From the NCBI RefSeq assembly GCF_017168235.1, contig NZ_JABFAO010000076.1:1-64000 (forward strand): 64,000 bases of DNA, in the 5' to 3' direction. Below, in pieces: positions 34,176 to 56,202 of the stretch. Numbering within the stretch: position 1 is the first letter of the stretch; every line of letters begins with the position of its first letter. Made by a program: the position numbers and the translations under genes. The notes below the pieces were generated by a model. That model ran no database searches. It was not told the DNA's origin and saw nothing but the letters and a program-made list of their open reading frames with translations. This stretch comes from Rhodococcus sp. KRD197. GTDB taxonomy: Bacteria; Actinomycetota; Actinomycetes; Mycobacteriales; Mycobacteriaceae.

Positions 34176-34233
34176 ACTGTTCAGCTTCGTTCTGACAACG
34201 CCCGTTGTCAACCCCCTTGGGTGACCGAAACAG

Positions 34234-34281: not shown

Positions 34282-34294
34282 TCAGCAGAGTGTC

Positions 34295-38830: not shown

Positions 38831-39637
38831 CTAGACGAAGATCATCTCGCGTATGGCGTCGCAGTCGCGCTCGAGAATCGACTGGTGGACGTTGCGGACC
38901 TGGCGGCCCGGTTCGACTCCGTAGTCGCCCTGCAATGTGTGCCTCAACCGGTTGTACACCTCCAACGCCTCGATCTGTCGCTCGGACAGATACAGAGCGC
39001 GCATCAGTTGCCGATGCATCGTCTCGCGCACCGGGAACTGCCTCGTCAGCTTGAGTAGCTCTCGGATCAACGGCGCGACGTCTCCGCGCGCGAGCATCAC
39101 CTCGTTTCGCTGCTCGAGGCACGCCAGGTACAGCTCGTTCATCTCGTTGACAGCCGCTTCCAGTTGCGGGCTGTCGGACAGTCCGGAAAGGAAGGGGCCG
39201 CGATACAACGCCAGCGCACTCTCGAAGTCCTTCCATGCACCGTCGAGATCGCCCGCCCGAGCCTTGGGGCGGGCGGTCTTCATGGCGTCGTCGAACGCGC
39301 ACCAATCGACGTCGAGTTTGTCCACCGCCAGTCGATATCCGCCGGATCGTGTCTCGATGAGCCCAGGAAACTCGCCGCACGAGTCCAGGAATGCGCGGAG
39401 CTGCGAGATGTAGACGTGGACGGACTCTCGACTCCGTTTGGGCTGTTTGGCTCCCCACACGATCTCTGCGACGGTTTCCATCGAGACGGTACTACCAGGG
39501 TCGATGACGAGAGCGGCCCACACCGACCTGAGCTTTGTCCCGCTGGGAATCTCGAATACCGCATCTTGTGAATGCAATTCGAGAGATCCGAACGTTCTGA
39601 TCGAAATTTCTCTACCCTCGAGCCCCGACACGCTCAT
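38831..39637 (-). CDS. SARP-family pathway regulator
   Basis: A 268-residue Streptomyces-antibiotic-regulatory-protein type activator. An OmpR-like wHTH (IRTFGSLELHSQDAVFEIPS, RSRESVHVYISQLRAFLDSC, IETRSGGYRLAVD) is followed by a BTAD domain (CAFDDAMKTARPKARAGDLD to RRLHTLQ-type helices). There is no ATPase domain, so it is the short, pathway-specific class. It lies just beyond the 3' end of the large biosynthetic operon and transcribes the same way from its own promoter region (39638-39812, AT-richer). It most likely activates the tetronate cluster. Confidence 0.87.
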   Translation of the reverse strand: MSVSGLEGREISIRTFGSLELHSQDAVFEIPSGTKLRSVWAALVIDPGSTVSMETVAEIVWGAKQPKRSRESVHVYISQLRAFLDSCGEFPGLIETRSGGYRLAVDKLDVDWCAFDDAMKTARPKARAGDLDGAWKDFESALALYRGPFLSGLSDSPQLEAAVNEMNELYLACLEQRNEVMLARGDVAPLIRELLKLTRQFPVRETMHRQLMRALYLSERQIEALEVYNRLRHTLQGDYGVEPGRQVRNVHQSILERDCDAIREMIFV

Positions 39638-41351: not shown

Positions 41352-42835
41352 GGCGTTTCCTTCGTCAATGCGAGCACCGCGCGGCGGGTGTCGACTTTTC
41401 CGTTGGCGGTGAGTGGTAGTTCTTCGAGTACGACGCAGCGCGTCGGCATCTTGGCAGGTTCGAGCAGCGCGGACAGCGCCGTCAGGACTGCGGGTTCGGA
41501 CGTCGTTGCCGTCACGACGATGGCCAGTCCCCGCTCCTCGGTGGGCTTGACGACAATGACGGACTGAACGCAGTCGAGCGACTCGACCGCGGCCGATATT
41601 TCGGACACGCTCGTGCGTACTCCGTTGGACTTGAAGATGTCGTCTCGACGCCCGGTGAAGTAGAGGTGCCCGTCGGGGTCGACACGGCCGTAATCCCCTG
41701 TGAAAAGGCACCGTTCACCGGTAGCGGCATCGGTACCGAAGCGTTCGGCGCTGAGGTGTTCGGCGTTCCAGTAGCCACTCATGACGTGCGGCCCGATAGC
41801 GACAATCTGACCTTCGTTGCCCGTTTCGACTTCCTGGCCGTCGTCGTCGACTATGGACACCTTGGTGCCGGGGATCGCCCGCCCCACCGACCCTGGGCGG
41901 TGGCGGTCGATATCGGGTTCGGCGATCGTCACGCGCTTGCATTCGGTGATTCCGTACATGGCGATGATCGCTGCATTCGGGAACACACCGCGCAACTGCG
42001 CTATTCGTGACGGGGGGAGGTCCGCTCCGGTGCTGGTGACCATCCGTACCGTCTCGATGCTGCCGCCACGGGAGAGGAGCGTGTGCAGCATGCCTGCAAC
42101 GGCAGGCACCGCCGGCACGACGGTCACCGGTCGCGACCGAATGGTCTTCAGAAGACCCAAGGCGTCCGCAGCGTCCGCGAGCACCACCGAAGCACCGGCG
42201 GAGAAGGACAGCAGAATCTGATACAGGCCGTAGTCGAAGGACAAAGGGGACATCAGCAGTACCTGGTCGGATGCCCTGTATTCGAGCCGCTGCCCGATCG
42301 AGTCCACGGCGAAGACCACTGCGGCAGCCGGGCAGATCACACCCTTGGGCTTGGAAGTGCTGCCCGAGGTGTACATCAGTAGCGCGGGCTCCGCTCCGGC
42401 GACCGGGCGGTGCACGGTTTGCTCGAGAGTCTCGACAGCGATGAGGTCACTCCAGGTCAGAACCGTTGAACCACTCGAAAATTCGTCGCTCGGTAGGGAC
42501 TGGACCACGATGAGGGCTGCCGTGCAATCCGCTGCCACGGAGTGCAATTGACTGTCAGTCGTCGACGGGGGAAGCGGAACGGCGATCGCACCGACCGTCC
42601 ACGCTGCGAAGATCAGCAAGACTGCCGGCACATCGTTGGGCAACCGTGTGACGACACGATCCCCGGGACATACGCCCGTCGCGGCGAGTGCGGCCGCTGT
42701 CTCGGCGACCAGACCGGCCAGGTCCCCGTACTCGACCGTGTGCCCGCCGGGGGCGTGGAGCGCGATCGAAGTCGGTGACTTCGCAGCGGTGTCGTGCAGT
42801 AGGCCAAGGGGAGTCGACGCCAGGGTCGTGTTCAT
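41348..42835 (-). CDS. AMP-dependent ligase (amino-acid adenylating candidate)
   Basis: A 495-residue ANL-family enzyme. The P-loop is LLMYTSGSTSKPKGVICPAA, then AMYGITECKR, the hinge region FTGDYGRVDPDGHLYFTGRR and the C-terminal catalytic Lys in LPLTANGKVDTRRA. The stand-alone adenylation-domain look and its 4-nt overlap with the decarboxylase-carrier fusion suggest that it loads an amino acid onto that carrier, as VinN and FlvN do in vicenistatin and fluvirucin biosynthesis. The amino acid cannot be read from the sequence by eye. A CoA-ligase role is the alternative. Confidence 0.85.
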   Translation of the reverse strand: MNTTLASTPLGLLHDTAAKSPTSIALHAPGGHTVEYGDLAGLVAETAAALAATGVCPGDRVVTRLPNDVPAVLLIFAAWTVGAIAVPLPPSTTDSQLHSVAADCTAALIVVQSLPSDEFSSGSTVLTWSDLIAVETLEQTVHRPVAGAEPALLMYTSGSTSKPKGVICPAAAVVFAVDSIGQRLEYRASDQVLLMSPLSFDYGLYQILLSFSAGASVVLADAADALGLLKTIRSRPVTVVPAVPAVAGMLHTLLSRGGSIETVRMVTSTGADLPPSRIAQLRGVFPNAAIIAMYGITECKRVTIAEPDIDRHRPGSVGRAIPGTKVSIVDDDGQEVETGNEGQIVAIGPHVMSGYWNAEHLSAERFGTDAATGERCLFTGDYGRVDPDGHLYFTGRRDDIFKSNGVRTSVSEISAAVESLDCVQSVIVVKPTEERGLAIVVTATTSEPAVLTALSALLEPAKMPTRCVVLEELPLTANGKVDTRRAVLALTKETP

Positions 42836-44319
42836 CTCGCTCCGTTTCGTGCTGTTCGGTCGGTCGAGGGGAGGTACAGGTGGGCGATGATCGCGCCGGC
42901 CACGAGGAAGACTGCTCCGACGGTGAAGGCGGCGGTAGATCCGGTGGAGAACGCGGACATTGCCGCGTTGTGTAGTTCCCGATCGCCCAGTCGGTCGGCC
43001 TCGGCCAGGGTTGCGCCGAGCGACCCAGTCTCGGTCGACGTTTCGCGTAGTCCAGCTTGGTAGAAGCCGGCCAGGACCGAACCGAGGACCGCGACGCCCA
43101 GGGAGAATCCGATTTCCTGCATCGTGTCGTTGACCGCTGCGGCCTCGCCCACGCGATGGGAGGGCACGGAGGCAACCATGGATTCGGTGACGAGCGGGAG
43201 CGCCATTCCGACGCCGATGCCTGCGAAGAACACCGCACCCAGCACGGTGCTCAGTTCGCCTCCGAACGCGGAGAGCGTGATCGAGGCGATCGCTGCGGTG
43301 ACGAGGCCGCCCACGACGACGGGTCGGCGACCGAAGGCGCTCGAACACGGCGTGGATACAGCAACTCCGATCAGCAACGCAAGCGTCACCGGCGCGACAG
43401 CGAACCCGGCCGTCGACGGTGACAGCCCGAACTGGAACTGGAGTTTTTGGGTCAGTACGAACAATGTCCCGGCGAGAGCGAAGAACAACAGCATGTTCGA
43501 GACCGACGCGCCGAAGAACTCACGACGTTGCTCTCGGGTTCGCGGCGGCTCGTCACCGGTGCTGTCGGGTTTCTTGCCGCTCACTGCCCACGCTGCTGCG
43601 GCGAGGACACAGGCGACCGCGATCAGAGCGATGCCGGGCAGCATCTCGTCGCTGACAATCGTCACACCCAGCACGAAGGTGGTGATGGCGCCGGCAGCGA
43701 GCACGAGAAGCCGGACGTCGACCGCTGATTGCGGCAGCTTTGCCTGCGGACGCACCAGGACAAGAATGGCAGTGGCCATCGCGGCTGAACCGACGGCCGA
43801 CACCACGAAGATGTAGTTCCAGCCCCATCCGTCGACGAGGATTCCGCCGATGATCGGGCCTCCTGCCGCCCCGGCCACCGATACCGCACTCCACACTGCG
43901 ATGGCCCTCGATCGGCCCGCCTCGGAAGTCGTGGCGACGACGAGCGCGAGGGTCGACGGCATCACGCACGCGGCGCCGACGCCCATCACCGCACGGGAGA
44001 TCATGATGGTCGGCACGTTGTCGACGGCAGCTGCTGCGGCTCCGCCCAGTCCGGTCGCCAGCAGACCGAGCAGCAATACGGTCCGCGCTCCCGTTCGGTT
44101 GCACAGGTATCCCGCAGGTAGCAGCATGGCCGCGAACGTCACCGAGTAAATGACGACGACCAGGCGCATGGCTGCTGCCGAGAGCCCGAGTTCGGTGGCC
44201 ATCGTCGGCAGGGCGACATTGATGGCAGAGCTGTTGAAGATGACGATCGTGACAGCCGCCGACATGGCGACCAGGACGACCCAGGGTCGTCGGCTGACCT
44301 GTACCTCGGTCGCGGTCAT
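42832..44319 (-). CDS. MFS exporter, DHA2 (14-helix) type
   Basis: A 495-residue transporter. Motif A-like loop GYLCNRTGARTVLLLGLLAT lies between helices 2 and 3, and the motif C-like VSVAGAAGGPIIGGILVDGW marks an antiporter exporter. About 14 helices are predictable. Such proton antiporters export drugs and natural products. It overlaps its neighbours by 4 nt in the biosynthetic operon, so the likely cargo is the cluster product or an intermediate. Confidence 0.87.
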   Translation of the reverse strand: MTATEVQVSRRPWVVLVAMSAAVTIVIFNSSAINVALPTMATELGLSAAAMRLVVVIYSVTFAAMLLPAGYLCNRTGARTVLLLGLLATGLGGAAAAAVDNVPTIMISRAVMGVGAACVMPSTLALVVATTSEAGRSRAIAVWSAVSVAGAAGGPIIGGILVDGWGWNYIFVVSAVGSAAMATAILVLVRPQAKLPQSAVDVRLLVLAAGAITTFVLGVTIVSDEMLPGIALIAVACVLAAAAWAVSGKKPDSTGDEPPRTREQRREFFGASVSNMLLFFALAGTLFVLTQKLQFQFGLSPSTAGFAVAPVTLALLIGVAVSTPCSSAFGRRPVVVGGLVTAAIASITLSAFGGELSTVLGAVFFAGIGVGMALPLVTESMVASVPSHRVGEAAAVNDTMQEIGFSLGVAVLGSVLAGFYQAGLRETSTETGSLGATLAEADRLGDRELHNAAMSAFSTGSTAAFTVGAVFLVAGAIIAHLYLPSTDRTARNGAR

Positions 44320-45578
44320 AGCGCACCCATCGAGATGGCGCGGTTGCGCCGACGCAGCACGTACATCGCGGCCGATCCGAATAGAAGCGACACGCCTGCG
44401 ACCACGTACAGCACGGTGAAGCCGTGGTCGAGTCGCAGGATCGCGACCCCCACCACAGGGGCCAGCGCGCTGGGGGCGACGACAGCCGAGTTGAGCAGCC
44501 CGAGGTCTCGGCCGTGGTGTCTGGGATCGGGGAGCAACTCGGTGAGCAGTGCGAACGTCGGCCCCATGAACGCGCCGAGTCCGACTCCGAAGGCAACTGC
44601 CGCACAGAGGATCACGGGCCAGGAGGAGGTGAACCCGAATACCGAGGCCGCAAGTCCTGCGAGCGCCGAGCCGATGATTGCCGGCCCGGTCCGGTCCTCG
44701 ATACGGTCGGACAGCCTCCCGAACACCAGAGCGCTCACCACGACGGACACCACGAAGAGCCCGGTCAACAGAATGAGAGCGCGAGCGGGCTCCGGCCGTG
44801 CAAGCTCGTCGTGCACGAAGAAGTAGAGGAACTGAGTCACGTTGCCCAGCCCGAACAGGACAAGCGTTCGGCTGGTCCATCCCAGCCACAACTGTGGTGT
44901 CGAGGTGTGCTCGCGGTTGCGTTCAGGCCCCGGCGAGGGCGGTGTGAGAACCGATTTCGGCTCACGTGTGGTCGACACGAAGATGAACGGCGCCGCCAGC
45001 AGTACGACGACGCCGGCTACGACCAGGTACGAGACGGACAGATCGGTGGAGACCGACGCGACGACAGTACCGAGCAAGGCGGCGAACATCTGCGCTGCCG
45101 CGAGTTTCCCGCCGATGCGAGCACGGTGTGCGACCGGAATCCGATCGGCGACAGTTGCTTCCACGCCACATTGGATCGCGGCGATTCCGGCTTGTGTCGC
45201 GCACCACCAGATGACAAGTTCCACACCGCTGTCGGCTTGTCCCGTCATGACCAGACAGGCCGCTGCGAGAACGACACCGACCAGCGACACCGTCCGTCTG
45301 TCGACGGTCTGCAGGAATCGATCGGACAAGGCCCCGATCAGGGGATAGCTGATGAGCATGACCGCGCTGCCCGCCGCGGAGATCAATCCGAAGAAGAGCT
45401 CTTTGTCGGAGGGGTACATACGTTCGGTCGCGACCGCGAGCAATACCTGCGTCGGCGCGAAGAACGCCACCCACCCGGCGAGCCCCGCGAGGGCGAGTCC
45501 GGTTTCGAGTCCGCGCGGAGCCGGGGACTCGACGGGCCCGCGCCCGATGCGCCTGCCCTGGGCCGATTCGATCGTCAT
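44316..45578 (-). CDS. MFS transporter, 12-helix
   Basis: A 420-residue transporter with about 12 helices. The first cytoplasmic loop is LIGALSDRFLQTVDRRTVSL and the central loop is charged (TTREPKSVLTPPSPGPERNR). The equivalent loop in the second half is FGRLSDRIEDRTGPAIIGSA. It belongs to a different MFS branch from the DHA2 gene next door. Two consecutive MFS genes in the operon suggest either separate cargo or redundancy in export/self-protection. Confidence 0.85.
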   Translation of the reverse strand: MTIESAQGRRIGRGPVESPAPRGLETGLALAGLAGWVAFFAPTQVLLAVATERMYPSDKELFFGLISAAGSAVMLISYPLIGALSDRFLQTVDRRTVSLVGVVLAAACLVMTGQADSGVELVIWWCATQAGIAAIQCGVEATVADRIPVAHRARIGGKLAAAQMFAALLGTVVASVSTDLSVSYLVVAGVVVLLAAPFIFVSTTREPKSVLTPPSPGPERNREHTSTPQLWLGWTSRTLVLFGLGNVTQFLYFFVHDELARPEPARALILLTGLFVVSVVVSALVFGRLSDRIEDRTGPAIIGSALAGLAASVFGFTSSWPVILCAAVAFGVGLGAFMGPTFALLTELLPDPRHHGRDLGLLNSAVVAPSALAPVVGVAILRLDHGFTVLYVVAGVSLLFGSAAMYVLRRRNRAISMGAL

Positions 45579-46318
45579 GGGATGCTCACCGACCCGACGG
45601 TCGTGCGGACGATCCGCTCCACCAGAGAAAACAGTTCCTCACTGTTGTCCGTGGTGAGGAAGTGTCCCCCGTCGATAGTGGTCATGGAGAATTCTCTGCT
45701 TGTGTGCCGGTCCCACTGTGCGAGGGAAGCCGTCGAGACCAGCCGGTCGGTGGTACCGCCGATTGCGTGGATCGGTATCGGCAATGTCGTGGTGTCGTCG
45801 ACACGGTTGCTCTGACACACCCTGATGTCGTCTTTGACGACGGCCAGCAGCGGACCGAGCCATTCCGGCCGGTCCAACAGCACTGCTGGTAGGCCGTCGA
45901 ACTCGGCGAGCGCGTGCGCGATTTCCAGATCGGTCAAGGAGTCCAGCGGAAGCGGGAGTGTGGGCACGTGCGGCGGCGCACCGGCTGCGACCACCAACGA
46001 CTCGGGCAGTCGGCGCCCTGCATCGAGTGCACGAACGGCAAGCCGGTAGGCCACGAGGGCGCCCATGCTGTGGCCGAACAGCACGTACGGCTTGTTCATC
46101 ACATCCGCGAGCTCGATCTCCAGGAGATCGAGCAGTGCGGACAGATCCGTGAAACGTTGTTCACGGCGGCGGTTCTCGCGACCTGGAAGCTGGACGGGAA
46201 CGACGTCGAGGATGGCGGAGTCGGACCAGCGCCGGTACACCGAGGCCGATCCGCCGGCATGGTGAAAGCACAGCACAGTAGGCGATTCCGTGACAGCCTC
46301 TGCAGCAGAATCGATCAT
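45575..46318 (-). CDS. Type II thioesterase
   Basis: A 247-residue alpha/beta hydrolase of the TEII class that accompanies PKS and NRPS systems. It begins TVLCFHHAGGSASVYRRWSD, has the nucleophile elbow LFGHSMGALVAYRLA, and the catalytic His is in IDGGHFLTTDN. TEII enzymes free stalled carrier proteins of wrong acyl groups and sometimes release the product. Because the PKS module here has no built-in thioesterase and release is expected through the tetronate synthase, editing is the likelier role. Confidence 0.88.
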   Translation of the reverse strand: MIDSAAEAVTESPTVLCFHHAGGSASVYRRWSDSAILDVVPVQLPGRENRRREQRFTDLSALLDLLEIELADVMNKPYVLFGHSMGALVAYRLAVRALDAGRRLPESLVVAAGAPPHVPTLPLPLDSLTDLEIAHALAEFDGLPAVLLDRPEWLGPLLAVVKDDIRVCQSNRVDDTTTLPIPIHAIGGTTDRLVSTASLAQWDRHTSREFSMTTIDGGHFLTTDNSEELFSLVERIVRTTVGSVSIP

Positions 46319-47421
46319 GCTGCACGCCTGCCCAGATCGACCGGTGACAACATCGACAGGCGTGACCCCAGCGAGAGAATCAGCGACAGGGCCGCACCTG
46401 CAACCGGCTTGAGCCCGGTCTGCTGCATCAACGCCACGATGGTCCACAACCGGATAGCCGTCATGTGTTCGGGCGAGCCATGGACATCGTCGAATTCGAT
46501 GACGCGCGAGTTCACTATGCGGTCTCGCACCAGCTGTGATTCAGCTGCAGGGGTGATCTCGTCCTGGCTGCTCTTGATGTAGAGAACCGGAATCTTGATG
46601 CGGTCGAGTTCGCGATCGTCCAGAGCGCAGCCGGCCAGCGTCGACGCCAATGCCGAACCTGTAGCGCCGGTGACGTGTTCGAGAGTGCGGACGGTGGCTG
46701 CGGGCAGCTCACCTGATATCGATGCGCTCCCGAAGAGGTACTTGATCGGTGCCCCGACCGTTACCATCGAACGAATGCGAGGATCGGTCGCCGCGGCTTT
46801 CAGAACGAGGGTGCCACCGAAGCTCATCGCGAGTGCGTGGACGCCTTCGATCATCATGCGTGTCGACACTGCATCGACGATGGCCGAGATCAGCACCGAA
46901 CTGTTCTCGCTGTAGCGAGTCGAATTCTCACCTACCCCGGGAAAGTCGGCGATCACCACTGCCATACCTAGTGCGCGTGCGGACAGCAGCATCTCTGCCC
47001 ACTGTTCTTTCGGGCTGACTATCCCGCCGATCACCACGAGTAGCGGACTCGGACCGTCGGTGGGTAGTCCCCGGAACCAGACCGGCACGGTGGACCCGTC
47101 GAGCCCGACAGTGAGCTTCTCCACGCCGTCGATCTCCGCTGCCCAATTCGTGAACGCGGCGGTGCATGCCTTGTACGCCTGCTTCCGACGAGGCGAGGAG
47201 GCGAAAGGAAAGCGGGCCAGGTTGAAAAGCTGTATGGCCTCGCGGTCTCGACCAGCCTCCAGTCGAGCAGTGCCTTCTGCGAACCATGCGTCCGCCCATC
47301 CGCCTTCCCCGTCCTCCAGAGTGGTGATGGAGTCGAGGATCCTTCGAGTGTGCCTGGGACCCATTCCCTGGGCGCGCGCATGCAGGGCGACCAGGGTCTT
47401 CAAGTCGTCGAGGTAGTCCAT
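46315..47421 (-). CDS. Alpha/beta hydrolase, Agg5-like (tetronate acetate elimination)
   Basis: A 368-residue hydrolase-fold enzyme of the FrsA/DPO-hydrolase-like group. A helical N-terminal part (about 1-110) precedes LLVVIGGIVSPKEQW, the nucleophile elbow ALAMSFGGTLVLKAA, the Asp in LYIKSSQDEITP and His in DDVHGSPEH. In the agglomerin pathway Agg5, of this fold, eliminates acetate from the acetylated tetronate to form an exocyclic methylene. Position next to the E2-like acyltransferase, ACP and FkbH genes supports the same job here. ATG 47421 starts 5 nt after the previous stop. Confidence 0.84.
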   Translation of the reverse strand: MDYLDDLKTLVALHARAQGMGPRHTRRILDSITTLEDGEGGWADAWFAEGTARLEAGRDREAIQLFNLARFPFASSPRRKQAYKACTAAFTNWAAEIDGVEKLTVGLDGSTVPVWFRGLPTDGPSPLLVVIGGIVSPKEQWAEMLLSARALGMAVVIADFPGVGENSTRYSENSSVLISAIVDAVSTRMMIEGVHALAMSFGGTLVLKAAATDPRIRSMVTVGAPIKYLFGSASISGELPAATVRTLEHVTGATGSALASTLAGCALDDRELDRIKIPVLYIKSSQDEITPAAESQLVRDRIVNSRVIEFDDVHGSPEHMTAIRLWTIVALMQQTGLKPVAGAALSLILSLGSRLSMLSPVDLGRRAA

Positions 47422-47425
47422 GATG

Positions 47426-48214
47426 TCAAACGGTCCGTTCGAGTTCGGGTGCGGTTCGTGCGACGGGGGATTCCAGCGCCGAGACAAGGTCTGCGGCGAC
47501 CTCGGCCGCCAGAGCGCCGTCGATCACCCGGTGGTCGAAAGTCAGCGACAGCGGTAGCACCGTCCTGCTGACGACGGTGTCGTTCACGAGTGCGACGGTC
47601 TCGGTCAGTCTGCTGATCCCCACCGTCATCGTGGTGCCTCCGTCTGAATAGAAGTGCCGGATCGGACGGTGGCCCAGTGAGGTGACGGCAACGGTTCCCA
47701 GCGATCGGTGGCCCCATGGCAGCAGGGTGGCCAATTCGAAGGCGGCACGGCCGGCCACACCGGGAAGGAACTGCAGAGCGCGGACGGGCCCACGGTCGCC
47801 CGCCTCGAGCCGTGTACGTGTCGCAGCTATCCATTCGGTGACTTCGGTGGCCGATACATTCTGTGCGGCAGCGAGAATCGCCGACTGCACAGTTCTCGTC
47901 CCTGCGACGGTGATGTCGAACGACAGCTTCACGTCGACATCACGGTGACGCGCCACGAACGGCAGACCGAGGGAGGTGAACGAGGAGTTCGCCTCCGGGT
48001 GGCGCACCCAGACCGTGCCGACAGCAGCGACGACCTGGGCAACGATCGACGCGGCGGCCGTGTCGGCTCTGCGGGCGAGCATCGCCGACGCATCCACCTC
48101 CACGCCGAGGTACACCGGACTGCGACCGCCGTTGCCTGCGAGGAACGCAAGGGTGTGCCATCGGCTGTTCGGCACCACCCCAAGACTCCGAGCCATCGAC
48201 ACCAGCGAGGTCAT
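47426..48214 (-). CDS. Stand-alone 2-oxoacid-dehydrogenase-type acyltransferase, Agg4-like
   Basis: A 262-residue protein that is only the catalytic domain of an E2 (dihydrolipoyl acyltransferase). The C-terminal SLTFDHRVIDGALAAEVAADL carries the catalytic His and Asp of the DHRxxDG motif, and TVAVTSLGHRPI is also E2-like. The lipoyl and subunit-binding domains are missing. In agglomerin biosynthesis Agg4, of this type, acetylates the primary hydroxyl of the tetronate before elimination. Location between the hydrolase and ACP genes fits that. ATG 48214 overlaps the ACP stop by 4 nt. Confidence 0.86.
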   Translation of the reverse strand: MTSLVSMARSLGVVPNSRWHTLAFLAGNGGRSPVYLGVEVDASAMLARRADTAAASIVAQVVAAVGTVWVRHPEANSSFTSLGLPFVARHRDVDVKLSFDITVAGTRTVQSAILAAAQNVSATEVTEWIAATRTRLEAGDRGPVRALQFLPGVAGRAAFELATLLPWGHRSLGTVAVTSLGHRPIRHFYSDGGTTMTVGISRLTETVALVNDTVVSRTVLPLSLTFDHRVIDGALAAEVAADLVSALESPVARTAPELERTV

Positions 48215-48432
48215 GCCGTGGCGACCTTGTAGATGTCCTGCAGGCTCGTGCTTTCCATGGCGCGAACGACCGAGACCGGTCTGCCTGTCTCGCCCTCCAC
48301 TGCTGTGATGACTTTCAACAGGTAGAGCGAGTCCCATCCGGCGATGCCGTCGAATGGAGTCGACAGGCCCGACTGCGTGATGTCCAAGCCGCTTTCAGCG
48401 CGTACCAGCTCGACGAATCGTTCCTCGGTCAT
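48211..48432 (-). CDS. Acyl carrier protein for glyceryl unit, Agg3-like
   Basis: A 73-residue carrier protein. The phosphopantetheine Ser is in IAGWDSLYLLKVI (S35), inside a normal four-helix ACP length. It lies 3 nt after the FkbH-like gene, which in tetronate pathways loads a glyceryl group from 1,3-bisphosphoglycerate onto such an ACP. The GWDSL form is typical of these discrete glyceryl/amino-acyl carriers rather than the fatty-acid DSLD form. Confidence 0.87.
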   Translation of the reverse strand: MTEERFVELVRAESGLDITQSGLSTPFDGIAGWDSLYLLKVITAVEGETGRPVSVVRAMESTSLQDIYKVATA

Positions 48433-48435
48433 TGT

Positions 48436-50160
48436 TCATCTCTCCTTGATGTCTACGTACAGCGGCACCGACGGCGCGTCGGCGGCAGCCAGGACGAATT
48501 GGTCGGAGTCCGAACTCAGGCCGTGCGCTGCACGATGATCGTGCGAGGACACGCGGAACCCGTGATCGAGGTACAGGCTGGCGGTGGCCGAGTTCTTCGC
48601 GCTCGGTGTGCGCCAAGCGATCATCCCCGTTTGCCCACGCGTGAACTCGCCCTGCGCTACGTACGCGAGCAGAGCGGTTTCCACCCCGCGAGCCAAGACC
48701 CGGCAGGACAGCGCGAAGTTGCGCACGAATGTGGTCGTGCCTGCACGCTCGAGGAACACAGCGCCGACGATTCCGTGGTCGCCGAACCGGTCCGCGCATT
48801 CGATTGCCAGCACTGCGGACTGCGGATTCTCGATCCACGACCGCACGGCCTGTTCGTCCATGCGCAGAGTTGTCAGGTTGAACTGATTGGTGCGTTGCGT
48901 GATCTGCGCGATCCGAGCGATCTCGACGCCGAGGGGTTCGAAGACCACCACGGTCGTTCCGAGATCGCGCAGATAGGTCTCGATGTCCTGCGCTCGCTCG
49001 CGCAGCGACTTGCGTTGCATCTCGATTCGATACCTGGCCGTTCGTGCTGTGTCCTCATCCGTGATGGACGTGGTGGTGAACCACCCGTCGCGCAGTAGCG
49101 ATACGACATGCAACGCGGGCTCATCCGGGTCGACGGCCACGATCGGCAGGGTAGGCATGGCCGAGCGCATCGCACCCCGCTCCGACGGGGAATCGTCGAC
49201 GAAGACGAAGGAGTCCACACCGATTCCGAGACCGGCCGCGACCTCGACCAGATTGCCGGGCTTGGGGTTCCAATCGGCTCGTATGCTGACGAAATCGCTT
49301 TCGCTCAGGTCGGAGTCGGGGTGGTCCAGCAGTGCCCGTCGGACGAGGTCGTCGTCGTTCTTGCTCAGAATCGACAGCAGCACTCCCTGGGAGGCGAGCT
49401 GGCGAAGTGCGCGTCGAAACGCTGCGTATGCCTCCCCGGAATGGCCGTGTCGAAAGTTGATACCGTCGATGCCATCCTCGGAAAGAATTCCCTCCCAAAG
49501 GGTTCCATCGAGGTCGAGAGCGAGCGCCTTGCTGGCGAAGCCGCGACGCGAACGGGCGATGTGGCCGATCTGACGCGCGCACTCGCGCATGTAGTCGGTG
49601 CCGAGCGCTATGCCGACGTAGGCCGCCATACGAGGATCGGCCAAGGGGCCGATCTCGGTGAGAATTGCATCCGCATCCAGAACCACGATCGAGGGGTCCG
49701 CCACGGCCAGGTCGAGCAACCGCGCATTGAATCGGCGCCACGCGGCACCGATTCGTGCTTTGGATGTCAGGTCTATCGACATCGCAAGCACGGCCATGGG
49801 CAAAGGGATCGTCGTGAGGACAGTCAGCCGCCGTGTTGCATGAGCCGGCAGGGACTCCTCGAGCTGGGTGGCGACGAGATCGAGGGCCTTGGTGATGTCC
49901 TGCGCCGTCCAGGTGTCGCCGAGGTGATCCAGGACCACCTTCGCATCGAGCATCACGACGGTCATCATCGGGTCGTGTTCGAAGACCTGAGCTCGGTCGT
50001 CCATCAATTCCAGAGCCCAGGTGCCGTATCCACCGATGCGAATCGCCGAGGTGAAGCCATGTCGCGCAAGCTCCGCGACGAGAGGGGCTTCGAGTCCGCG
50101 GACGGTCGAACTACCGAGTATCGATAACGCAATCGGATCGTGCGGGTTGGTGGTGGTCAC
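48436..50160 (-). CDS. FkbH-like glyceryl-ACP synthase (HAD-IIIC), Agg2-like
   Basis: A 574-residue FkbH-family protein. The N-terminal third is SGNH-like (ILGSSTVRG, GGYGTWALE). The HAD domain follows: motif I LALDLDGTLWEGILSEDG, SILSKNDDDLVRRAL, and FVFVDDSPSERGAM. The C-terminal quarter is acyltransferase-like, with FNLTTLRMDE, FGDHGIVGAVFLE and RNFALSCRVLARGVE. Most FkbH proteins show LDLDNTLWGG, so DGT here is a small variation that restores the classical HAD DxDGT. The family dephosphorylates bisphosphoglycerate and transfers the glyceryl group to ACP. It overlaps the KASIII gene by 4 nt. Confidence 0.9.
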   Translation of the reverse strand: MTTTNPHDPIALSILGSSTVRGLEAPLVAELARHGFTSAIRIGGYGTWALELMDDRAQVFEHDPMMTVVMLDAKVVLDHLGDTWTAQDITKALDLVATQLEESLPAHATRRLTVLTTIPLPMAVLAMSIDLTSKARIGAAWRRFNARLLDLAVADPSIVVLDADAILTEIGPLADPRMAAYVGIALGTDYMRECARQIGHIARSRRGFASKALALDLDGTLWEGILSEDGIDGINFRHGHSGEAYAAFRRALRQLASQGVLLSILSKNDDDLVRRALLDHPDSDLSESDFVSIRADWNPKPGNLVEVAAGLGIGVDSFVFVDDSPSERGAMRSAMPTLPIVAVDPDEPALHVVSLLRDGWFTTTSITDEDTARTARYRIEMQRKSLRERAQDIETYLRDLGTTVVVFEPLGVEIARIAQITQRTNQFNLTTLRMDEQAVRSWIENPQSAVLAIECADRFGDHGIVGAVFLERAGTTTFVRNFALSCRVLARGVETALLAYVAQGEFTRGQTGMIAWRTPSAKNSATASLYLDHGFRVSSHDHRAAHGLSSDSDQFVLAAADAPSVPLYVDIKER

Positions 50161-51161
50161 AATCCCTCCAGCGTGATTCCGCCGCGAATCCAGCGGCTGG
50201 ACTCGATGGCTACGGCAAGGGCCCGTTCACCGGGCCCGATGACCTCGGCGAGGAGGTCGAATTGGAGGAACGCCAGTGCGTTTCCGCTGTTTCCGGTCTC
50301 AGCGACGCAGCTGATCTCGCGTGCACCGTCCATGCCCATTTCTTTCCGGATGCGGGCCGTCATGATTCCGGACAGCTGGGGCGGCAGGAGGTAGCCGACG
50401 TCGTCCGTGGTCCAGGATGATCGACGCAGGAGTTCGCGTGCGGTCTCGACGCTCATGCCGGGCACGCGTCGTTCGATCGCCTTGTAGTCCTCCTGCACGG
50501 CAGGAACTTCCGAATCGCGATCGGCATCGCCGAACCACTCGATTGTCTGCCCTGGAACGCTGCCCACGCCGCTGAACACGCAATGGATGGTGTTCGCTCG
50601 CATGATTGCACCATCCGGGTCCGCGGAGATCACCATCGCGCCCGCCCCGTCACCGAAGAGCATGTAGTTTACGAGCTTCGACGGGTGCATGGAGCTGATA
50701 TCGCGGTCCAGAACCATATGTTTGGCGCACAGGTCGGCCCCGATCACCAGACCGATTCGGTTTTCGTCGTCGAGCATGCGGCGCGCGACGTCCAAGGCCG
50801 ATATCGCCCCTGAGCAGCCGGATTGCAGTTGGTACGCAGGAATGAGGTTCATACCGAGCCGATCTGCGACTCCGGTCGCAGAGGTCGGCATGAGCGTATC
50901 CGGCGTTGCAGTGGCCAGTACCAGGAAATCGACGTCCGACGGCTCCAGCCCGGCGCGATCGAGCGCTTGTCTGGCTGCGTGCGTCCCGAGATCGACGATC
51001 GAGTGCGTTCGCTCCCCGGACTCGAGATCGACTCCGAAGTAACGTGTTCGGGTGCCGACGAACAGCTCGATCCACTCGGCGTTCATGCCGAAGCGTGCAG
51101 CGAGCGCCGAGTTGTCCACTGCATTGCCGGGCAGGCAGGTCCCGGTTGCGAGCACGTACAT
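50157..51161 (-). CDS. KASIII-like tetronate-forming synthase, Agg1-like
   Basis: A 334-residue thiolase-fold protein with the KASIII start MYVLATGTCLPGNAV and the nucleophile Cys in LQSGCSGAISALDVARRML (C116). Where typical KASIII enzymes have PHQAN the sequence reads LPPQLSGIM, so the catalytic His looks replaced. The Asn loop ETGNSGNALAF is kept. In tetronate pathways this protein joins a beta-ketoacyl thioester to glyceryl-ACP, forming C-C and C-O bonds. It sits between the PKS and FkbH genes, the expected place. ATG overlaps the PKS stop. Confidence 0.86.
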   Translation of the reverse strand: MYVLATGTCLPGNAVDNSALAARFGMNAEWIELFVGTRTRYFGVDLESGERTHSIVDLGTHAARQALDRAGLEPSDVDFLVLATATPDTLMPTSATGVADRLGMNLIPAYQLQSGCSGAISALDVARRMLDDENRIGLVIGADLCAKHMVLDRDISSMHPSKLVNYMLFGDGAGAMVISADPDGAIMRANTIHCVFSGVGSVPGQTIEWFGDADRDSEVPAVQEDYKAIERRVPGMSVETARELLRRSSWTTDDVGYLLPPQLSGIMTARIRKEMGMDGAREISCVAETGNSGNALAFLQFDLLAEVIGPGERALAVAIESSRWIRGGITLEGL

Positions 51162-54100
51162 CAGTTCGCTCCTTCGAGAATCGGTGTGCGCACATGCTGC
51201 TGCGCGTGCTGGTGGGCGAAGTCGACGAGACTGCCGACGGTATCGAGGTTGTCGGCGAGATCGACCACCGCTATGGGTGGGCACGGCGCGAGTATCTCGT
51301 TGACTCGATCCCCGAGTCGGACTGCCATGATGGAGTCGAAGCCGAGATCGTCGCGCAGTCGGGATTCGCGAGTGAACTCGGCCATGTCGAATCCACCGAG
51401 CTGCGCGATGGCTGTGCAAATCGACGTTTCGAGATCGAAATCGACTTCACCCGAAGCCGCTTCCGCCGCTGCATAGGACGACCGTCCGGCCGTGAGGCCG
51501 CTCGATTCCGCCCCGACCGCCGGGCTCTCGAGCCCCGATTCTGCGGCAGGCATACTCGAACGCAGTCGCAGCGCCGGCTTGCTCGCCAACCGATGCCGGT
51601 CGTGATCGAAGCGGTATCCGGGGAGGCGTCGAATCGTGCGGTGTTGCGGTTCGTACAGCGCAGGCCACACGATGTCGGCACTCGCGGTGTAGAGAGTCGC
51701 GAGAACTTGCGCGAACTCCGATCCGACCGACGCGGGCCCTGCGATAGGAATGAGGCAGTCCGCACCCGAGGTGCCGATATCGCGTGCCAGGGTCGTCAGG
51801 ACCGCGTGCGGACCGATTTCGATGAGATGCGTAGGTCGGGCGTCGTCGGCGAGCGCCTCGAATGCGGCGAGGAAGCGAACCGGCCGGACCATCTGCTCAC
51901 TCCAGTAGTCGAGCGAGATGTCGCGACCGTCGATCCGGTGGCCGCGGAGGGTGGAGTAGAACCCCATCGTTGCGTCGCCGGCCGACATACCGGATCCCAC
52001 CTCGGCCCGGAACGCCGAAGCCGCCGGTTCCATCGCGGGGGAGTGGAAAGCATGGGTCACCCGCTGTCGCTTCGGCGAGAACTCTGCCAGAGCGCGTTCG
52101 GCACGTTCGAGCGCTGCGGCCTCACCTGCGAGCACGGTGTTTCGCGGACCGTTCATCACGGCAATGCACAGCGTCGCATCGAGGTCCACGCGTGATGCGA
52201 TGGTCTCGGCGTCGGCACGGACGGAGAGCATTCCGCCGGCGGGCGAGGCGGAGTCCATTGCGCGACCGCGCGCGCAGACCAGTGCAAGGGCTTCCGGCAT
52301 CGAGTGAACACCCGCTGCGACGGCCGCTGCGAACTCACCGAGGCTGTGTCCCAGAACTGCGCTGGGGCGGACGCCGACGTCGAGGAAGGCTGCGGCCAAG
52401 GCGTGTTGGACTGCGAACAGGGCAGGCTGCGCAACAGCGGCACGGCGCACCAGGTCGGCGGAGTCCTCCAGGAAGAGCACCTTTTCGAGATCCGAACGCA
52501 GTTCGGCCGGTGCCGCGTCCAGAACCTCGAGGAGCCTCTCCGCGTATGCCGGGCATTGGCGCGCGAGGGCACTGCCCATCGCCGGGTATTGCGATCCCTG
52601 CCCGGTGAACAGAAACGCCGGTGCGGGCGTCCGGCCCCGCTCTACGTCGCTGGCCGAGCGTTCGACAGCAGCTCGTCTCAGGGCCGCCGACGCCTCCGCC
52701 GCGCTGTCGGCCACGACGGCCAGGCGCGATCGAAGACCGGACTTGACCATATTGGTCGAGTAGGCGACCTGGTTGAAGCGGTCGGCGGAGATATCGGCAA
52801 CGAAGTCGGCGAGTTCGATGGCGTTGGTGGCCAATGCGCTCTCGTCCACTGCTGAGACGGTGATCACCGAAGTGCCGGACAGGCGACTGGGAGAACGGGA
52901 TTCGCTGGGTGACCCGATGACCACGTGCGCGTTGGTCCCGCCCATACCGAACGAACTGATCCCGCCCACGAGCGATCTGCGTGGCAGCCTGGCTACCGAG
53001 GCGTTCAGCTGCAAACCCTTCTCGCCCAGTCCGAGACTGTTGTTCTCGGGATCGGCGAACAGTGATGGGGGAAAGACACGTTTCTTCACCGAGAGCGCTG
53101 CCTTGATGAAACCAGCGATTCCCGCGGCTCCCTCGAGATGACCGACATTGCCCTTCACCGAACCGAGCAGACACGGCTGGGCGCGGTCTACGCCGTGCAC
53201 TTTCCCGAGGGCACGAGACTCGATCATGTCGCCCAGGACAGTCCCCGTGCCATGCCCTTCGACGAAGTCGACGTCGGACGCAACCAGCGAGGCCCGCGAA
53301 TACGCCGACTCGAGAACGTCGATCTGTGACCACATGCTGGGTGCGGAAATCCCGTTGCTGCGCCCGTCGTGATTGACGGCCGAGGACAGGACCCGGGCGT
53401 ACGACATCCCCGAACGTGCGATGTCGTCGGTCTCACGCTGAAGCACGACGACTCCGATACCTTCACCGCGCCCGATTCCGTCGGCCCGCGAGGAGAACGG
53501 CTTGCATCTGCCGTCCGTGGAGGCGAGTCCGGACTCGGCATAGAAGACCGACAAGGCGGGCGAGAGCATCATGTTGGCCCCGGCCACGATCGCGGTGTCG
53601 ACATCGCCGATCCGAATTGCGTTGACAGCCTGATGGACTGCCACCAGCGAAGAGGAACACGCGGTGTCGACGGTCATGCTCGGGCCGTGCAGGTCGAGGT
53701 GGTAGGACACGCGGTTGGCTGCCATGCAGTAGCCTCCGCCGGTGCCTCGATGCGGTGTCATCTCTGCAGGACTCGACATCGCCATCGAGGTCCAGTCACT
53801 CGACATCATCCCGACGAAGACGCCGGTGTTGCTGCCGGCCAAGCTGGTGGGGTCTATTCCCGCATCTTCGATCGCGTGCCAGGACATTTCGAGAATCAAC
53901 CGCTGCTGAACGTCCATCTCACTCGCCTCGGCCGGTGAGATGCCGAAGAAGGAGTGATCGAACTCGCCGTGCCCGGTGATGAACCCACCGAATCGACTCG
54001 GCTGGCGAGGCGAGGCCGAACCGCTAGTGCAGTCCCCGCCCCTCAAGTCTCCGCCTGTCCAGTCCTTCGTGGTCCAGCGATCCGAGGGCACTTCTGTGGT

Positions 54101-54205
54101 GCCGTGGCGCCCCTCTACCAACAGCTTCCAGAATGCCGCGGCGTCAGGCGCACCGGGGAACCGACAGGCGATTCCGGTGACTGCGACGGGTGCAATCGCA
54201 GTCAC
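51161..54205 (-). CDS. Type I polyketide synthase module KS-AT-ACP
   Basis: A 1014-residue single module. KS (about 1-425): nucleophile DTACSSSLVAVH (C183), EGHGTGT and NVGHLEGAAG His motifs. AT (about 525-850): GQGSQYPAMG, GHSLGEFAAAV (S621) and THAFHSPAM, the HAFH form that predicts malonyl-CoA. ACP (about 920-1000): LRDDLGFDSIMAVRL (S958). No KR, DH, ER or thioesterase is present, so the product stays a beta-ketoacyl-ACP after one extension. GTG 54205 overlaps the upstream ACP stop. It should extend the fatty acyl chain loaded by the FAAL. Confidence 0.93.
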   Translation of the reverse strand: MTAIAPVAVTGIACRFPGAPDAAAFWKLLVEGRHGTTEVPSDRWTTKDWTGGDLRGGDCTSGSASPRQPSRFGGFITGHGEFDHSFFGISPAEASEMDVQQRLILEMSWHAIEDAGIDPTSLAGSNTGVFVGMMSSDWTSMAMSSPAEMTPHRGTGGGYCMAANRVSYHLDLHGPSMTVDTACSSSLVAVHQAVNAIRIGDVDTAIVAGANMMLSPALSVFYAESGLASTDGRCKPFSSRADGIGRGEGIGVVVLQRETDDIARSGMSYARVLSSAVNHDGRSNGISAPSMWSQIDVLESAYSRASLVASDVDFVEGHGTGTVLGDMIESRALGKVHGVDRAQPCLLGSVKGNVGHLEGAAGIAGFIKAALSVKKRVFPPSLFADPENNSLGLGEKGLQLNASVARLPRRSLVGGISSFGMGGTNAHVVIGSPSESRSPSRLSGTSVITVSAVDESALATNAIELADFVADISADRFNQVAYSTNMVKSGLRSRLAVVADSAAEASAALRRAAVERSASDVERGRTPAPAFLFTGQGSQYPAMGSALARQCPAYAERLLEVLDAAPAELRSDLEKVLFLEDSADLVRRAAVAQPALFAVQHALAAAFLDVGVRPSAVLGHSLGEFAAAVAAGVHSMPEALALVCARGRAMDSASPAGGMLSVRADAETIASRVDLDATLCIAVMNGPRNTVLAGEAAALERAERALAEFSPKRQRVTHAFHSPAMEPAASAFRAEVGSGMSAGDATMGFYSTLRGHRIDGRDISLDYWSEQMVRPVRFLAAFEALADDARPTHLIEIGPHAVLTTLARDIGTSGADCLIPIAGPASVGSEFAQVLATLYTASADIVWPALYEPQHRTIRRLPGYRFDHDRHRLASKPALRLRSSMPAAESGLESPAVGAESSGLTAGRSSYAAAEAASGEVDFDLETSICTAIAQLGGFDMAEFTRESRLRDDLGFDSIMAVRLGDRVNEILAPCPPIAVVDLADNLDTVGSLVDFAHQHAQQHVRTPILEGAN

Positions 54206-54462
54206 GAGCTGGCCTTGGCTGCTATCTCGGAGCGTAGATACCCCGCCATCGCAGCGACACTCGGGTAGTCCCACGCCATCGTGGGTTCGACCACGATTCC
54301 GAACTCGTCCTCCATGTCACCGCACAGGGTGAGGGCATAGACCGAATCGAGTCCGTACTCGGCAAGTGGGCGGTCGATGTCGACCGAACTCGGTGGGATT
54401 CGGAGGAATCCTGCGAGCTTCTCGATCAGCCATTCGGTTTCGTCGATCGGACGAGCAGGCAT
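54202..54462 (-). CDS. Acyl carrier protein (FAAL partner)
   Basis: An 86-residue ACP. The phosphopantetheine Ser is in LAEYGLDSVYALTL (S40), in the pattern seen in carriers that precede FAAL/PKS systems. It has an AGAAGGA-like ribosome site 7 nt before ATG 54462. It lies directly upstream of the PKS, with overlapping GTGA. It probably receives the fatty acyl group from the fatty-acyl-AMP ligase and passes it to the KS, and may hold the chain for the dehydrogenases. A 102-nt gap before it holds no gene. Confidence 0.88.
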   Translation of the reverse strand: MPARPIDETEWLIEKLAGFLRIPPSSVDIDRPLAEYGLDSVYALTLCGDMEDEFGIVVEPTMAWDYPSVAAMAGYLRSEIAAKASS

Positions 54463-54564: not shown

Positions 54565-56202
54565 TCAGGGCATCGTGCGGGGGACTGCGCGCTCACGAAG
54601 ATCGAATGCGCGCCCCTCGTGGGTTCGTCGGAGTACTTCGGTGAAGGTCTCGAGTACGACATGGGTAGGTGCCGCCAGCCGCAGGCCTGCCACCCGTTCC
54701 GCGATGCGGTGCAGGGCAAGCACTGCCCACGGCGGGGCGTCCCCATCGAGCCTGTCGACGACGGCAGCCGCCATGAGGAGCAGCGAATACTGCTCGGTGA
54801 GGCGCATCGCCGCGGCAGACGCGGTCACACCGAGGTCCTGCGGAGTCAGGGTTGCGGCCGCTGACCGCAGCTCGGTGACAGCACCCGCGAGAACTGGCCA
54901 CACCTCGGCCAGCGCTGGATGTTTCGGCGCCGACTCGATGCCGACTCGAAGACGGTTCAGGACAGGGTCCGGTCCAGGGCTGAGCATCCGCAGGGACGCG
55001 AAATTCAACGGCACTGGTTCGGATTCACGGGCGCTGGCTGCGGCCGCGTCACCTCGGGTGGTCAGGCGCTTGAGCTGGGGCAGGATCGCCAACTGGCAGG
55101 CAGCTCCACCCGCATGTCCGATCGCGAGTGCGGCAAAATCACGATAGTGCTTGCCGAACAGTGCGTACGGTCCCGTTCGCAGGTAGAAACGCGCACCGAG
55201 AACGACGGACAGGTCGGACATCACAGATTCCAAGACCCTCGGAACGATGTATTTCGCTGCAGCGGAGTGCGCACTGCCGAACTCCGGCCGGGTATGCAGT
55301 GTCTCGGCCGCGTCGGCGATCATGCATTCTGCAGCCATGAGATCAGCGAAAGCCGATGCGAGAGTGTGCTGAACGTGCGGTAGATCCGAAAGGTCGCGGC
55401 CGTACAGGCGCCTTCGCGAAGTGAAACCGGCGACCGCGAAGAGGCTCTCGTCGACTGGCCCCAGACCTGCGCCCGCGGCCACACATCTCGACACCTGGAA
55501 AGACTTGAGGGCGGTTTCGACTGCGGTGCCGGGTGCACCCAGCATGTTCGAGGACGCCACCGGCGTGTTCCGAAAGTCGAGTCCACTGAGTCGACAACCG
55601 CGCAGAGCCAAGCTCCGATGCCGGGGAGTCGCTGTGGGCGAGTCGGGACCGTCGAGATCGACCAAGAACAGCGAGTGCTCCCGGCCACCGGATCCGGATG
55701 CTCCGGTGCGAGCGAACACGACGGCCGACGCTGACCGGTCGGCGTTGTTGATCACCGATTTCGTGCCGTTCAGCCGGTAGATGTCGGCGTCCTCCGTGGC
55801 CTGCAGTGCATTCGCGCCGAAGTCGTTCCCATGATCGAGCTCGTGGTAGGCAACGGAGATCGGAGTGCCCGACATCAGCGTTGCAGCAACCGCAGCCTTC
55901 TGGTCGTCCCGACCTGCTGCGTAGACATTGACCGCGGCCATGAACGAGGTGAGGCCGTACCCGAGGCCGAGTGAGGCGTCGCGTCCGAAAACTGGTCGTA
56001 GCAACTGAATCAGCCGCTCGGTCGAGGTGAATCGGCCACCGAGTGCAGTCGGCACGAACTCCGCGCCGAACCCGTAGCTGTCGAGGACCGATCGTGTTCC
56101 GGCCATGATCTCGCGGCGTTCGTCGGCTTCGAGAACACCGGTGACCCCGTAGGCGTTGTCGGGATCGTACGGATCGCCGAGCATTGTGTCGAGGCTGGTC
56201 AT
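54565..56202 (-). CDS. Acyl-CoA-dehydrogenase-like flavoenzyme 1
   Basis: A 545-residue acyl-CoA dehydrogenase-superfamily protein. Family regions include LGLGYGLTSFMAAVNVYAAG, ISVAYHELDHGNDFGANALQ, YRLNGTKSVINNADRSASAV, and the C-terminal helical domain with YGRDLSDLPHVQHTLASAFA and FYLRTGPYALFGKHYRDFAA. It is longer than the usual 380 residues, with an added C-terminal region of about 130 residues. It probably introduces a double bond into a carrier-bound or CoA-bound acyl chain with FAD. It is paired with a paralogue upstream, with 4-nt overlap. Confidence 0.84.
   Translation of the reverse strand: MTSLDTMLGDPYDPDNAYGVTGVLEADERREIMAGTRSVLDSYGFGAEFVPTALGGRFTSTERLIQLLRPVFGRDASLGLGYGLTSFMAAVNVYAAGRDDQKAAVAATLMSGTPISVAYHELDHGNDFGANALQATEDADIYRLNGTKSVINNADRSASAVVFARTGASGSGGREHSLFLVDLDGPDSPTATPRHRSLALRGCRLSGLDFRNTPVASSNMLGAPGTAVETALKSFQVSRCVAAGAGLGPVDESLFAVAGFTSRRRLYGRDLSDLPHVQHTLASAFADLMAAECMIADAAETLHTRPEFGSAHSAAAKYIVPRVLESVMSDLSVVLGARFYLRTGPYALFGKHYRDFAALAIGHAGGAACQLAILPQLKRLTTRGDAAAASARESEPVPLNFASLRMLSPGPDPVLNRLRVGIESAPKHPALAEVWPVLAGAVTELRSAAATLTPQDLGVTASAAAMRLTEQYSLLLMAAAVVDRLDGDAPPWAVLALHRIAERVAGLRLAAPTHVVLETFTEVLRRTHEGRAFDLRERAVPRTMP

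Follow-up and report, generated by a model that had tools for sequence, protein, structure and literature searches.

The window analysed here comprises 64,000 nucleotides of Rhodococcus sp. KRD197 (contig NZ_JABFAO010000076.1, positions 1 to 64,000 of the forward strand), and about twenty neighbouring genes within it form a cluster of about 28 kb (34954-62882). The cluster probably builds a fatty-acid-derived 3-acyl-5-methylene-tetronate, likely with a beta-alanyl group attached. Confidence differs between the parts of this reading: formation of the tetronate ring and its methylene by a five-gene core is regarded as highly probable and a fatty-acid starter with one extension as quite probable, while the transfer of beta-alanyl to a hydroxyl is given about an even chance. 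An earlier note on this DNA had placed a tetronate cassette at 46315..51161; the core was located correctly, but the interval was too small and missed the surrounding cluster, which alters the expected product.

On the minus strand, positions 51161 to 46315 code in the order of transcription for a KASIII-like tetronate synthase of the AbyA1/Agg1/RkD type (50157..51161, 334 aa; KASIII Pfam families and family alignment), an FkbH glyceryl transferase/phosphatase of the AbyA2 type (48436..50160, 574 aa; TIGR01686 FkbH, 263 bits), a stand-alone acyl carrier protein (ACP) of the AbyA3 type for the glyceryl unit (48211..48432, 73 aa, phosphopantetheine Ser35; PP-binding, 1.7e-5), an E2-type acetyltransferase of the AbyA4/Agg4 type (47426..48214, 262 aa; PF00198, 1.3e-13, and a DHRxxD motif) and an alpha/beta hydrolase predicted to be an acetate eliminase of the AbyA5/Agg5 type (46315..47421, 368 aa; AbyA5 match). 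The five open reading frames (ORFs) contain no internal stops, and their start codons are a choice among in-frame candidates. The KASIII/FkbH and ACP/E2 junctions overlap by 4 nt each, while FkbH and ACP are separated by 3 nt and E2 and hydrolase by 4 nt; of the five consecutive, overlapping genes of the earlier note, the consecutive arrangement thus stands, and overlap applies to only two of the four junctions. The gene names given there agree with the Pfam and NCBIfam assignments, and its claim of a full AbyA1-A5 ring-forming set was borne out, with all five families present in the order of AbyA1-A5 and with the expected catalytic residues. The gene order equals that of abmA1-A5 in a table of PMC5819245. 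Streptomyces abyssomicinicus, an abyssomicin producer, has the same core order at its locus (L077), with 37-49% identity in gene-by-gene alignment. Since relatives of KASIII, FkbH, E2 and hydrolase stand together in 28 of the 80 loci described below and the order recurs in the abyssomicin producer, the arrangement of the core is not due to chance.

Among 7994 candidates scored, 1072 proteins were related to the window KASIII at E<=1e-30, and the best 120 of these share 49-99% identity with it. For the analysis of gene neighbourhoods, contigs were scanned with a 23-sequence KASIII alignment (the window protein and 22 relatives) and the best 80 of 248 relatives were kept as loci, each spanning at most 21 kb and some being cut by contig ends. 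FkbH was found in 49 of these loci, the pair of E2 and hydrolase in 48 and the full trio in 28. One or more of the three occur in 72 of the 80 loci; the remaining 8 have none of them, so that KASIII alone is no proof of a tetronate set. The position of the catalytic His of FabH is occupied by Pro (PPQ) in 81 of 81 KASIII sequences (80 loci and the window), and Cys117, the active-site Cys, and Asn292 are invariant in the 23 aligned sequences, by whose numbering they are named. The best match among solved structures was 5by7, a 3-oxoacyl-ACP synthase III (1.5e-99). Close relatives are uncommon: with the own genome counted, they were found in 2 of the 37 genomes searched within the genus (E<=1e-40) and in 4 of the 296 searched within the phylum (E<=1e-60, 7 candidates per genome scored). 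The root of the KASIII tree was not used, as its outgroup was poor, being made up of two fragments from the own genome that align with 31 query residues. Judged by its sequence, the window protein is placed in the tetronate KASIII family.

FkbH proteins were sought in 20 genomes with a tetronate-type KASIII and 29 relatives were scored. The window FkbH matched 22 near-full-length proteins of these genomes at 384-957 bits (S. abyssomicinicus, 444.6 bits) and the other 7 at 96-138 bits, among them one of S. scabiei at 9.38 Mb, which we take to belong to the concanamycin (methoxymalonyl) locus. In a FastTree tree, it groups with the high-scoring set that includes the FkbH of the abyssomicin producer. 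Taking this presumed methoxymalonyl locus as the control, the sequence comparison assigns the window FkbH to the tetronate type and not to the methoxymalonyl type. D216, D218 and C486 are invariant in 30 FkbH sequences (29 relatives and the window), and the only match among solved structures was an uncharacterised protein (7.2e-24). The hydrolase matched the structure of AbyA5 at 2.9e-72, and its S211, D298 and H325 are invariant in 10 of 10 sequences, window included, as are H231 and D235 of the DHRxxD motif in the E2 protein (10 of 10 sequences, window included; query numbering in both cases). The latter gave weak E2 matches to solved structures (best 4.7e-4); its counterpart in S. abyssomicinicus sits between ACP and hydrolase. 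As far as the comparisons were run, neither a grouping of KASIII or FkbH with non-tetronate families nor an E2 protein or hydrolase outside the Agg4/AbyA4 and Agg5/AbyA5 types was found. The earlier prediction of an exocyclic-methylene tetronate is well founded at the level of sequence, given an E2 protein and an AbyA5-like hydrolase with their catalytic residues kept. The enzyme roles, including acetylation and elimination, are backed by in vitro and gene-removal work on tetronomycin, RK-682, agglomerin, quartromicin and abyssomicin (PMC4979870 and PMC5819245, with proposals in PMC7489565).

Upstream of the core, and likewise on the minus strand, lie the genes that would supply the acyl chain. 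They code for a fatty acyl-AMP ligase (FAAL; 58004..59782, family scans), two acyl-CoA dehydrogenase-like proteins (ACAD2, 56199..58007; ACAD1, 54565..56202; family scans and alignment), a second stand-alone ACP of 86 aa that is likely the fatty-acyl carrier (54202..54462) and a one-module type I polyketide synthase (PKS) with the domains KS-AT-ACP (51161..54205; Pfam and motif), whose GTG start overlaps the stop of this ACP. A type II thioesterase (45575..46318, minus strand, Pfam) follows the core. The second ACP was absent from the account of the earlier note; a relative of it lies between ACAD1 and PKS in all 9 joined regions that hold the core, and matches at E<=1e-3 occur in 62 of the 80 loci, the weakest of which are probably ACP domains of modular PKSs. 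No reductive domains were found in the PKS by Pfam scan and its AT domain carries HAFH, a malonyl-type motif, so that it should yield a beta-ketoacyl-ACP, on which a tetronate KASIII acts. FAAL was found in 54 of the 80 loci, with both ACAD types alongside in 48. The two dehydrogenase-like proteins are the weakest link of this front part. At the position presumed to hold the catalytic Glu, Asp is found in ACAD2 and His in ACAD1, and the same residues stand there in nine homologues of each, which makes desaturation unsure and counts against this part of the proposal. Both proteins are also longer than dehydrogenase domains and perhaps form one heteromeric enzyme.

With FAAL, ACP and a single KS-AT-ACP, the cluster may belong to the RK-682/agglomerin subtype, in which a fatty-acid-derived acyl chain receives one malonyl extension. 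Agglomerin and RK-682 have a fatty-acid-like side chain, and we know of no VinN-, VinO- or CerJ-like part in their pathways. Both share with the reading proposed here the joining of a glyceryl-ACP to a beta-ketoacyl thioester, and agglomerin additionally the acetylation and elimination by Agg4 and Agg5 that are predicted for the window (PMC4979870). The abyssomicin genes AbyA1-A5/AbmA1-A5 comprise all five core genes in the same order, but there a multi-module PKS supplies the chain (PMC5819245), whereas in the window it would be one module fed by a fatty acid.

The amino part of the cluster consists of genes for a VinN-like stand-alone adenylation enzyme (41348..42835), a BtrK/VinO-like pyridoxal phosphate (PLP)-dependent decarboxylase fused to an ACP domain (39813..41351) and a CerJ-like KASIII-type acyltransferase (34954..35991), all on the minus strand and accompanied by genes for a cytochrome P450 (35988..37283, minus strand, family scans) and a flavin adenine dinucleotide (FAD)-dependent mono-oxygenase (37414..38766, plus strand; family scans and structure-sequence match). 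The adenylation enzyme is closest to VinN (3wvn, 1e-98) and is predicted to activate aspartate via its beta-carboxylate. Among the pocket residues of VinN named in PMC11253843, D230, K330 and R331 are kept, while F231 is replaced by Tyr and S299 by Thr; the five letters are identical in 11 of 11 block members, which were left from 13 rows after two unrelated adenylation paralogues had been set aside. The decarboxylase matches BtrK (7ru7) at 8.3e-57 and carries the ACP domain at its C terminus; it is the predicted maker of beta-alanyl-ACP. In vicenistatin biosynthesis, VinN loads 3-methylaspartate onto an ACP, where it is decarboxylated by VinO (PMC11284099). A search of the window's genome for the E subunit of glutamate mutase found none, though the control for this family is weak, with a signal in only 1 of 14 genomes and below the cut-off there; this absence makes 3-methylaspartate an unlikely substrate and aspartate, giving beta-alanyl-ACP, the likelier one.

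The window shares with VinN, VinO and VinL the combination of a stand-alone adenylation enzyme for a beta-linked acidic amino acid, an ACP-dependent PLP decarboxylase and an ACP (PMC11284099), but differs in that its ACP is fused to the decarboxylase and that no macrolactam PKS was seen in the cluster. Homologues of VinM and VinK were likewise missing, in that no further stand-alone amino-acid adenylation or acyltransferase ORF occurred among the cluster ORFs scanned. The amino part would therefore work like the first half of the VinN-VinM-VinO-VinK-VinL set and is not classed as a member of it. As a side observation, the adenylation and decarboxylase proteins match TIGR03098 and TIGR03099, the ligase and PLP decarboxylase associated with the exosortase A system, below the cut-offs, and a similar enzyme pairing may exist there.

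The CerJ-like protein, for which transfer of beta-alanyl is predicted, matched CerJ first (4.2e-72); next came 5wgc, a protein of the daunorubicin PKS and presumably DpsC, a starter-unit KASIII, and then ChlB3. With CerJ of cervimycin biosynthesis and with ChlB3/DpsC it shares the fold of a KASIII transferase, and the Cys and His aligned with C116 and H295 of CerJ, which we take to be residues with a catalytic role, are kept and invariant in 11 of 11 CerJ-like sequences. Unlike in CerJ, the group to be transferred is predicted to be an amino acid borne by a fused carrier. The adenylation and decarboxylase genes of S. scabiei (locus L093-L095) stand between two CerJ-like genes, and two copies were seen in five other genomes of the 40 searched for this gene.

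From the genes, families, catalytic residues, synteny and co-occurrence observed, we infer a pathway of six steps. FAAL would activate a free fatty acid and load it onto the small ACP (54202-54462), where the two dehydrogenase-like proteins likely desaturate it, and the KS-AT-ACP protein would then add one malonyl unit without reduction to give a beta-ketoacyl-ACP. In the third to fifth steps, which draw on experiments in homologous pathways, FkbH would charge the ACP of the core with a glyceryl unit taken from 1,3-bisphosphoglycerate, KASIII would join the beta-ketoacyl and glyceryl units and release a 3-acyl-5-hydroxymethyl-tetronate, and the E2-type enzyme would acetylate its CH2OH group, followed by elimination of acetate by the AbyA5-like hydrolase to give the exocyclic methylene. 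In the sixth step, proposed from homology and linkage, L-aspartate activated by the VinN-like enzyme would be bound to the decarboxylase-ACP fusion and decarboxylated there, giving beta-alanyl-ACP. The CerJ-like KASIII would then hand the beta-alanyl group to a hydroxyl that the P450 or the FAD mono-oxygenase has introduced.

The assignment of the core and the amino part to one pathway was assessed by their linkage in this and other genomes. In the window, the adenylation and decarboxylase genes close the same tightly packed gene run as the core. In Rhodococcus sp. 1168, the tested genes between 34954 and 62882 are syntenic with 70-92% identity. In this strain, and likewise in Prauserella endophytica, Streptomyces sp. 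ACA25, S. scabiei, S. stelliscabiei, S. hiroshimensis and S. flaveus, a single contig holds core, amino block, P450 and FAD gene; in Streptomyces sp. NBC_01435, the same parts sit on a plasmid. Gene order differs among these eight genomes. In S. durbertensis, core and amino block share a 23.6-kb contig, which breaks off before the remaining genes. With a strong decarboxylase relative defined by E<=1e-80 and 79 of the 80 loci counted (L025 left out), such a relative was found in the genomes of 22 of the 36 loci with FAAL, both ACADs and E2 and of 13 of the 43 other loci (Fisher p 0.007, uncorrected for relatedness). A search of the phylum, which found a relative at this threshold in 2 of 296 genomes (own included), was not used for comparison, because it scored only 4 candidates per genome and the genera differ. 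CerJ-like genes were sought in 40 genomes, corresponding to 40 of the 80 loci and mostly of the FAAL type. A CerJ-like gene and a strong decarboxylase relative occurred together in 20 of them, the decarboxylase relative only in 5 and the CerJ-like gene only in 1. The CerJ-like gene lies within 6 kb of the decarboxylase gene in 19 of the 20 genomes holding both; in the 20th, Actinokineospora spheciospongiae, it lies 33 kb from the tetronate KASIII and near a contig end, with the decarboxylase gene near the end of another contig. The amino part is a frequent, not constant, companion of the core.

Several observations weigh against the proposed reading. No CerJ-like gene was found at E<=1e-60 in 5 of the 25 decarboxylase-bearing genomes among these 40. 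Strong decarboxylase relatives occur in 26 of 48 genomes, but lie within 37 kb of KASIII in 8, at 84 kb in 1 and on other contigs in 17, and in S. scabiei, S. stelliscabiei, S. hiroshimensis and S. flaveus the two genes are as much as 30-37 kb apart. In A. iranica, the decarboxylase gene lies in the middle of a 1.15-Mb contig. Moreover, many decarboxylase matches stop before the ACP part, so that some may be macrolactam decarboxylases. Phe231 and Ser299 of VinN are replaced by Tyr and Thr. Glutamate may take the place of aspartate, or the acceptor may be a group other than a hydroxyl.

Among the alternatives, a plain acyl-tetronate of the RK-682/agglomerin type, with the adenylation, decarboxylase and CerJ-like genes forming a separate neighbouring pathway, is unlikely, though the most probable of them. 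It would account for the 14 of 36 FAAL-ACAD-E2 loci whose genomes lack a strong decarboxylase relative and which show that the amino part is not universal, a further point against the proposed product. It would also fit the 14 of 80 loci that have FAAL, FkbH and KASIII with neither E2 nor hydrolase in the compared stretch, as expected for RK-682-like hydroxymethyl tetronates (L038, L058, L060, L061, L062, L064, L070, L071, L080, L081, L082, L085, L089 and L090). Against it stand the tightly packed gene run of the window, which ends with the adenylation and decarboxylase genes, and the presence of both parts on one contig in eight other named actinobacteria with several gene orders. The case of A. 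iranica speaks on both sides: the genes for decarboxylase, adenylation enzyme, CerJ-like protein and P450 do not share a contig with the core, but the separate block carries the P450 gene that was not found in the 21-kb core stretch, where the FAD gene is present, so that the two parts are separate in place and complementary in content.

It is improbable that the amino part feeds the chain, with beta-alanyl or 4-aminobutyryl as a starter passed to the PKS by the CerJ-like KASIII. The relationship of this protein to the presumed DpsC structure 5wgc would agree with such a role, but its nearest relative is CerJ, which we take to be an acyltransferase to hydroxyls. VinN, VinO and VinL supply starters in macrolactams (PMC11284099), but in the window FAAL, a dedicated ACP and two ACADs already indicate a fatty-acid starter, and no VinK- or VinM-like gene was present among the cluster ORFs scanned. 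A spirotetronate, formed by reaction of the exocyclic methylene with a diene in the acyl chain and with the FAD protein as a PyrE3-like cyclase, is very improbable: the same five genes are used by spirotetronates (PMC4979870), but the window offers one unreduced extension module and no modular PKS among the cluster ORFs scanned. The match of the FAD protein to PyrE3 is weak (2.2e-5), and identification as a PyrE3-type cyclase was rejected, since the protein is closer to mono-oxygenases (8uiu, 2.2e-35, and UbiH-type families). The last alternative, that no tetronate is made and FkbH and KASIII instead take part in supplying methoxymalonyl-ACP or another extender derived from glycerate, can practically be dismissed, for although acyl-CoA dehydrogenases presumably occur in methoxymalonyl pathways too, those of the window sit beside FAAL and PKS, and no methyltransferase, O-methyltransferases included, or hydroxyacyl dehydrogenase was found in Pfam scans of the cluster ORFs. 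FkbH alone is common to methoxymalonyl pathways (PMC7489565), but the FkbH scores and tree rule such a pathway out, and the KASIII family and the AbyA5 match also speak against it.

Most of the remaining genes of the cluster would serve regulation and export of the proposed amino-acylated tetronate. A SARP-type regulator (38831..39637, minus strand) likely turns the cluster on, and two MFS transporters (42832..44319 and 44316..45578, both minus strand) and an MMPL-family exporter (60315..62882, plus strand, start not settled) likely export the product; a divergent SRPBCC-family (Polyketide_cyc2) protein, the start of which is not settled either, is encoded at 59857..60558 on the plus strand. 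All five were assigned by family scans and the MMPL exporter additionally by synteny, its gene being the last tested syntenic gene on its side. The tested ORFs just outside the cluster (32970-34697 and 62900-63991) were not found in the 60 kb compared from Rhodococcus sp. 1168; the former, adjoining the cluster, has an MPAB/rubber-oxygenase domain.

More distant loci were also seen. A metagenome-assembled genome of a Xenococcaceae cyanobacterium (L075) holds genes for FAAL, SRPBCC, both ACADs, ACP, PKS, KASIII, FkbH, ACP and E2 as well as for an FAD mono-oxygenase, a hydrolase and a thioesterase, in an order that nearly matches the window, which would reflect either long-distance transfer or an old pathway. 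Mycobacterium montefiorense (L026) has a tetronate-type set with an FAD mono-oxygenase, an MFS transporter and a partial FAAL. Plasmid pSCAT of Streptomyces cattleya carries a KASIII relative with 47% identity to that of the window; unlike in the window, several PKS modules surround it and no FAAL was found in 41 kb. We infer that this locus may be the source of the cattleyatetronates, compounds mentioned in PMC12775259; its several PKS modules set it apart as a different kind. The foxicin clusters of many Streptomyces combine FkbH with a non-ribosomal peptide synthetase and consist of different genes, and in the celluxanthenes, which also involve a KASIII and a tetronate, the ring derives from a tryptophan-derived keto acid.

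The statement of the earlier note that no tetronate from Rhodococcus is well described agrees with the open-access literature searched, in which none was found, subscription journals being mostly outside the search. By antiSMASH, a similarity of 3% to tetronasin is given for a genome of R. erythropolis (PMC10819586) and of 7% to abyssomicin for the marine Rhodococcus sp. I2R (PMC8396431), and the latter region is possibly a relative of the window cluster. Among the open-access papers listed, none was recognised that connects tetronates to FAAL or to a decarboxylase of the BtrK/VinO type, and no description of amino-acylated lipid tetronates as a product class was found there; the Streptomyces relatives may have a published product beyond that search. 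We tentatively propose, with some doubt, that the cluster represents an undescribed tetronate subfamily across several actinobacterial genera, in which a fatty-acid methylene-tetronate would be esterified with beta-alanine by means of a decarboxylase-carrier fusion and a CerJ-type KASIII to give a cationic Michael-acceptor lipid, and that it would be the first Rhodococcus tetronate pathway known to us.

If this holds true, one conserved gene set in Rhodococcus, Prauserella, Actinokineospora and several Streptomyces would make amino-acylated lipid tetronates. Antibiotics and ionophores are known among the tetronates, and the exocyclic methylene is chemically reactive. The cluster would unite tetronate ring formation with the VinN/VinO route to beta-amino acids, both of them well-studied toolkits, and the CerJ-type KASIII would gain a predictable carrier-bound amino acid donor, which is directly testable in vitro.

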